Assembly (NCBI GenBank): GCA_007134775.1
Contig: SLKC01000064.1
Span: 1-64,000 of the forward strand
DNA length: 64,000 bases
Reading direction: 5' to 3'
Source of the DNA: Ectothiorhodospiraceae bacterium
Lineage (GTDB): Bacteria > Pseudomonadota > Gammaproteobacteria > XJ16 > Halofilaceae
Shown: piece after piece, positions 13,771-14,311 of the stretch
Layout: each line of letters begins with the position of its first letter
Position numbering within the stretch: position 1 is the stretch's first letter
The notes under the pieces: generated by a model
Database searches by the model: none
What the model was told of the DNA's origin: nothing
Seen by the model: the letters and a program-made list of their open reading frames with translations, nothing else
Position numbers and translations under genes: made by a program

Positions 13771-13920
13771 CCGCGACGGTCGGCCGTGCCGTTAATGAAG
13801 TCACGGTAATAGCCGTTACAGGACGCCTTCATCGGCTCGCTGGCACCTTCGTAACTGCGCTGCGTTGGAGGGTTGAGCCTTCAGCGCGAATCGAAGTCCG
13901 AGCCGATTGGAGGTTAGACA

Positions 13921-14154
13921 ATGACGCACTACAAGAGTCTGCTGCTCGCCCTGCTGTTCGCCTTCGCGATGATCTTCGGTGGCATGGGAACGGCCGCTGC
14001 GGCCGAACTCGGTGAAGACACCGACAACCAGACCCTCGCCTACGAAGATGATGATTGGGATGACGAAGGCGATGATTGGGGCGATGACGACTGGGATGAC
14101 GAAGGCGATGACTGGGACGACGACGAGTGGGATGAAGGCGACGACGACTGGTAA
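13921..14154 (+). CDS. Small secreted Asp/Trp-rich repeat protein
   Basis: A 77-residue protein with a clean signal peptide (about residues 1-27, hydrophobic core LLLALLFAFAMIFGG, cleavage near AAAAEL). The mature part of roughly 50 residues is almost only Asp, Trp, Glu and Gly. From residue 43 it repeats DDWDDEG-type units, and DDWDDEGDDW occurs twice. The gene has an excellent GGAGG ribosome-binding site and its own 150-base upstream region. I recognise no family. The extreme negative charge with evenly spaced Trp suggests cation binding or electrostatic coating in the periplasm, but this is conjecture. The nearly identical 21-base coding units imply recent repeat expansion. Confidence 0.75.
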   Translation: MTHYKSLLLALLFAFAMIFGGMGTAAAAELGEDTDNQTLAYEDDDWDDEGDDWGDDDWDDEGDDWDDDEWDEGDDDW

Positions 14155-14311
14155 TCCCCAACTGGCCGTTGCTGTCTGCTGACAGCGTGGCCCCCGACAA
14201 GCCTGGACGGCGCGAGTCCGCACTCCCAATCGGAGGCGGGCTCCGCTGTTTGGGGGCGTCCTGAACGAACCGCGCTAGCGCGAGCATGGCGGCCACTGTC
14301 GACTGCCGCGT

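Follow-up and report, generated by a model that had tools for sequence, protein, structure and literature searches.

The window analysed here is a 64,000-nucleotide stretch of DNA in which an open reading frame at 13921–14154, on the + strand, gives an unbroken 77-aa translation and a stop (MTHYKSLLLALLFAFAMIFGGMGTAAAAELGEDTDNQTLAYEDDDWDDEGDDWGDDDWDDEGDDWDDDEWDEGDDDW). As the initial annotation had noted, the frame has its own intergenic region, with 150 nt separating it from the stop of the upstream GDPD gene (13770) and 157 nt separating it from the end of the convergent downstream gene for PAPS reductase (CysH, 14312). The same-strand genes upstream encode a peptidase M48, an MscS-type mechanosensitive channel, DUF3581, an HlyU family protein and GDPD. 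The features of the locus are as follows:

13771–13920, + strand: upstream intergenic region or putative 5′ UTR, 150 nt, running from the GDPD stop (13770) to the ATG
13831–13839, + strand: 5′ arm of a predicted helix, AUCGGCUCG, from single-sequence folds; joined by the CCUUC that precedes it, the arm pairs with 13899–13913
13899–13907, + strand: 3′ arm of the same predicted helix, CGAGCCGAU, adjoining the Shine-Dalgarno sequence, from single-sequence folds
13909–13913, + strand: Shine-Dalgarno sequence GGAGG, read from the sequence, with the ATG 7 nt downstream
13921–14154, + strand: ORF for the exported Asp-Trp repeat mini-protein, from translation; the sole match within its own genome
13921–14004, + strand: apparent Sec signal peptide, residues 1–28 (K5, hydrophobic core, TAAAA/E), from inspection and an AlphaFold2 helix at residues 3–19
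14005–14151, + strand: mature peptide of about 49–50 residues, depending on the cleavage site, from composition and an AlphaFold2 model without secondary structure
14047–14135, + strand: 36-bp tandem repeat, 2.5 copies with 88% matches, coding DDDWDDEGDDW(G/D), from Tandem Repeats Finder
14206–14253, no strand assigned: strong GC-rich hairpin between the convergent genes, without a T-run, from a fold of 14150–14275 (z = −3.1)

The apparent signal peptide, the ribosome site and codon-position GC all support coding, and 13921–14154 is very likely a real, translated gene. The strong ribosome binding site claimed in the initial annotation is present as GGAGG. Codon-position GC is 0.71/0.35/0.72, which is gene-like in its low second position; the corresponding values for the neighbouring genes are 0.67–0.74/0.44–0.48/0.76–0.87, so that third-position GC of the mini-protein ORF falls below theirs. 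Its Glu codons are mostly GAA, whereas the neighbouring genes prefer GAG. The two complete copies of the 36-bp repeat differ at 4 bases, of which 3 are synonymous third positions and the fourth changes G to D. This synonymous excess, at n = 4 changes, is suggestive of coding in the + frame.

The product had previously been described as secreted, and the apparent signal peptide, whose cleavage site near A28 was placed by inspection, agrees with this. The mature part of about 50 aa contains 23 D, 7 E, 6 W and 5 G, lacks His, Met and Cys as well as Lys and Arg, and has a calculated charge of approximately −30. Its final 36 residues are D, E, W or G throughout, and the repeat DDWDDEGDDW reported earlier occurs there in two exact copies. 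Tryptophans are spaced 7-5-7-5-7 and each Trp of the repeat region is preceded by DD or DE; every Trp spacing fell within 5–7 in 0.08% of random placements, a regularity that is partly due to the tandem duplication. The extreme composition that first drew attention to the gene was borne out: with every frame considered, the richest 44-aa stretch holds 33 D/E/W at the mini-protein and 18 elsewhere in the window, and 30 first-order Markov simulations gave no more than 14. The proteome, which had been called acidic, is so only mildly, with a median pI of about 5.8 in a rough gene set in which some shadow ORFs remain. AlphaFold2, run with no alignment, returned a sole helix at residues 3–19 and no secondary structure in the mature part, at low confidence (pLDDT about 55–64). 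The mature mini-protein is thus predicted to be disordered.

Upstream of the gene, a promoter scan of 13771–13920 found no sigma-70 consensus pair, and no Rfam family reached its gathering score near the gene; two weak antisense Rfam matches fell below threshold and were taken as chance. The two helix arms are perfectly complementary, and the predicted helix extends across the ribosome site. In a shuffle test devised after the fold was seen, a perfect 9-bp arm to the same place arose in 3 of 2000 dinucleotide shuffles, and the ribosome site was equally closed in 17 of 400 shuffles. When the whole ORF was included in the fold, the ribosome site partly opened. As a lead from a single sequence, it is possible that the predicted helix serves as a translational switch. 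Short repeats are present between 13823 and 13913 as well, two that are SD-like and two that are complementary (13865/13907; 13825/13877). Downstream, the predicted hairpin at 14206–14253 is possibly the shared transcript end of the two convergent genes; a terminator scan that requires a T-run found none.

Relatives of the mini-protein were sought in several collections. Searches of two congeners and 91 further genomes of the class yielded no orthologue, the weak matches there reflecting signal peptides or composition; one of these matches (L003) is a thioredoxin-like protein. In a search of 84,980 species genomes, which may omit records of the own genome or of one near it, none of 130 pattern stretches was confirmed as a close homologue. 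Phages, plasmids and viral contigs held no homologue and the own genome no paralogue, weak matches there to a congener's acidic protein being unrelated frames. Pfam gave nothing above its curated cut-offs, the best match being trypanosome PARP (18.1 bits against 100), and NCBIfam gave no match, so that the earlier statement that no family comes to mind holds. A PDB search by sequence gave no relative with a meaningful E-value, and no paper returned by our literature search describes a secreted Asp-Trp or acidic-Trp protein of this sort. Lacking an orthologue, the mini-protein offers no proof that it is under selection.

Within the genus, the nearest counterpart is an exported DEHAGE-repeat protein of a congener (L002 in G001; E = 0.0017 in the genome search). 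Like the mini-protein, it is small and joins a signal peptide to an acidic, low-complexity mature part; unlike it, it lacks Trp, contains His and has different neighbours. The likeness lies mostly in the signal peptide and composition. At about 1150–1296 and 1492–1734 of the same congener locus, two adjacent small exported acidic proteins share (S)GDEHAG(E/D) repeats, and one of the two has a lipoprotein-like signal.

Among the neighbours read, no metal gene, transporter or metal-linked stress regulator adjoins the mini-protein gene, and no sil genes lie beside it. Homologues of four neighbours (GDPD, CysH, DUF3581 and MetX-like) are on other contigs or in other places in both congeners, and reading their GDPD and CysH regions revealed no acidic mini-gene. 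Since these four tested neighbours are placed elsewhere, the congeners offer no syntenic slot in which to seek a lost or decayed copy.

DDW tracts as such recur in other bacteria. A scan for the pattern W-D-D ... D-D-W-D across the 84,980 species genomes returned at least 117 stretches; among the matches listed, most are tails at the C-termini of unrelated proteins, and small exported proteins account for some. Within the class, the DDWDD(D/E) pattern occurs in 20 of 369 genomes, and only in the own genome does it sit in a protein built in this way; a stricter pattern was found in 8 of 398 genomes of the phylum. A search of the own genome with one pattern found no other DDW-type tail. NapC/NirT-type tetraheme cytochromes with C-terminal DDW tails are present in Nitrosomonas (L071, L095, L020) and in a further genome, G323 (L134, L157, L160), whose three near-identical cytochrome copies have DW tails that differ in length (206 versus 209 aa). 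DDW-tailed proteins in several gammaproteobacteria (L178, L179, L182, L022, L030, L054, L135) are presumably GTPase Obg, as judged by N-terminus or tail. Proteins of Collinsella, Olsenella and relatives (L016, L050, L066, L068, L092, L124) share DARTGKVLEAD followed by long DW or RDDW tails, and appear PepSY-like by eye.

Two actinobacterial matches, from Acrocarpospora pleiomorpha (L028) and Sphaerisporangium corydalis (L130), are related to each other, and matches are present in 12 of 201 Streptosporangiaceae genomes (further loci L186–L201 and L202–L208). All 12 begin with an apparent signal sequence and end in a D/W-rich stretch whose length varies. These mini-proteins have 43–50 residues, appear to be exported by their signal peptide, and have no Pfam model. 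An ABC transporter gene is common to six of the seven neighbourhoods read, with P450, DUF1996 and cytochrome bd (CydA) genes in subsets; the seventh, from an Acrocarpospora-like branch (L205), differs. Like the mini-protein, members of the family run directly from the signal peptide into D/W repeats that reach the C-terminus, within fewer than about 80 aa. They differ in belonging to another phylum and in having a conserved leader of their own, MLRRLIATG, and their neighbourhood of ABC transporter, P450, DUF1996 and CydA genes is absent around the mini-protein gene. Pairwise BLASTP that included the leader found no significant similarity (E = 13), and what the family therefore documents is maintenance of the architecture elsewhere; it does not make the mini-protein gene a member. 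The initial annotation had proposed looking for orthologues of variable repeat number; none was found for the mini-protein, and such variation is seen in this unrelated family. Together with the partly shared neighbours, the variable repeat length suggests that the DW architecture is useful rather than accidental.

How might such a peptide function? The reading we favour, to which we give an even chance, is that the mini-protein is a Sec-exported, disordered envelope polyanion that binds cations, where we infer both the export and all of the binding. The Sec route would carry the small protein into the cell envelope, and the mature peptide would persist there as an unfolded, highly charged polyanion. 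Most likely it would then bind cations through multivalent electrostatic interactions, with clusters of carboxylates holding divalent metals, or with peptides and proteins of positive charge as the ligands, and the regularly spaced tryptophans may provide contacts to the membrane or to a partner. Cation binding is the simplest function for a peptide of this kind, and the earlier suggestion of a periplasmic polyanion appears to be the best reading of its anatomy. We prefer the disordered polyanion because of the apparent signal peptide, the ribosome site, the last 36 residues composed only of D, E, W and G, the charge of about −30 and the AlphaFold2 prediction. Further points in its favour are the 7-5-7-5-7 Trp spacing, the synonymous changes between repeat copies, the recurrence of DDW tails, the Streptosporangiaceae family and the precedent of SilE. 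Neighbours without metal genes and the lack of an orthologue count against it. Metal binding in itself needs no tryptophan, and this too counts against cation binding.

We regard it as doubtful that the gene is instead a young orphan, in which a signal peptide and a recently expanded 36-bp repeat are translated and exported with little or no selected function. Its uniqueness to the own genome across the collections searched, the tandem repeat at the DNA level and the different surroundings of the tested neighbours in the congeners would all fit such an origin. They are opposed by the synonymous bias between repeat copies combined with a constant Trp spacing, by the good ribosome site, and by the maintenance of DW mini-proteins in another phylum.

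Charge alone is no explanation for evenly spaced tryptophans that follow DD or DE, and this keeps alive another reading, in which the DDW repeats are a free-standing acidic-aromatic tail that binds one basic surface, such as that of an electron carrier or a membrane protein. Recognition of a partner explains the regular Trp spacing more easily than charge does, and NapC/NirT-type tetraheme cytochromes, like the putative GTPase Obg, do end in DDW tails. The role of those tails is itself putative, however, the neighbourhood contains no partner, and the one pattern searched found no such tail elsewhere in the own genome; we consider docking of this kind unlikely.

Two remaining possibilities are far less probable. 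It is most improbable that the frame is not translated and that the repeat is non-coding or codes on the other strand: overlapping antisense open frames of 137, 155 and 98 aa count as a point in favour, but antisense open frames likewise accompany other genes of this GC-rich window, and those over the mini-protein ORF lack the support that the + frame draws from its apparent signal peptide, GGAGG, coding-like codon-position GC and third-position changes. Equally slight is the probability that the peptide chelates Ca or lanthanides specifically, in the manner of an EF-hand or of lanmodulin: its many carboxylates, and tryptophans that could report lanthanide binding, are set against the absence of a D-x-D-x-D-G loop, of flanking helices, of a fold predicted by AlphaFold2 and of a PDB relative with a meaningful E-value. 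By inspection, the mature part has neither an EF-hand loop nor GGxGxDxux nonapeptides of the RTX type, with no Pfam match, and it offers no His, Met or Cys as soft-metal ligands. Metal or lanthanide specificity thus finds no support in the sequence, and the Ca and lanthanide binding raised in the initial annotation is unsupported as a specific property.

Returning to the envelope polyanion, the most general new point is that stand-alone DW mini-proteins, as recognised by their sequences, recur in distant bacteria. Much more tentatively, and against our own expectation, near-pure Asp/Trp exported mini-proteins may constitute a recurrent class of independent origins in distant bacteria, each a dedicated envelope polyanion that its regularly spaced acidic-aromatic repeats would form, with translation that is perhaps gated by an RNA helix over the ribosome site in the present case. 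Exported proteins of small size and low complexity readily escape annotation and filtered similarity searches. If the mini-protein does bind metals or cationic peptides, it would represent a minimal polyanion in the bacterial envelope, and one that is easy to test.

Among known systems, the SilE protein is periplasmic, is disordered without metal and absorbs metal ions, binding Ag+ through His and Met motifs (PMC5008109). A sponge of that type would also fold on binding its metal. The mini-protein resembles it in being small and probably periplasmic, and the AlphaFold2 model, at low confidence, gives its mature part no structure; it differs in having no mature His or Met and no sil genes beside it. 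The procyclic acidic repetitive protein (PF05887) likewise carries acidic repeats behind a signal sequence, although these are eukaryotic EP/GPEET repeats without DW and the match of 18.1 bits lies below the cut-off of 100. NapC/NirT-type cytochromes share the acidic DDW stretch, which in their tails varies in length. The cytochromes, however, are heme proteins to which the tail is appended, whereas in the mini-protein it makes up nearly the whole mature protein, showing that Asp-Trp repeats can form one alone.
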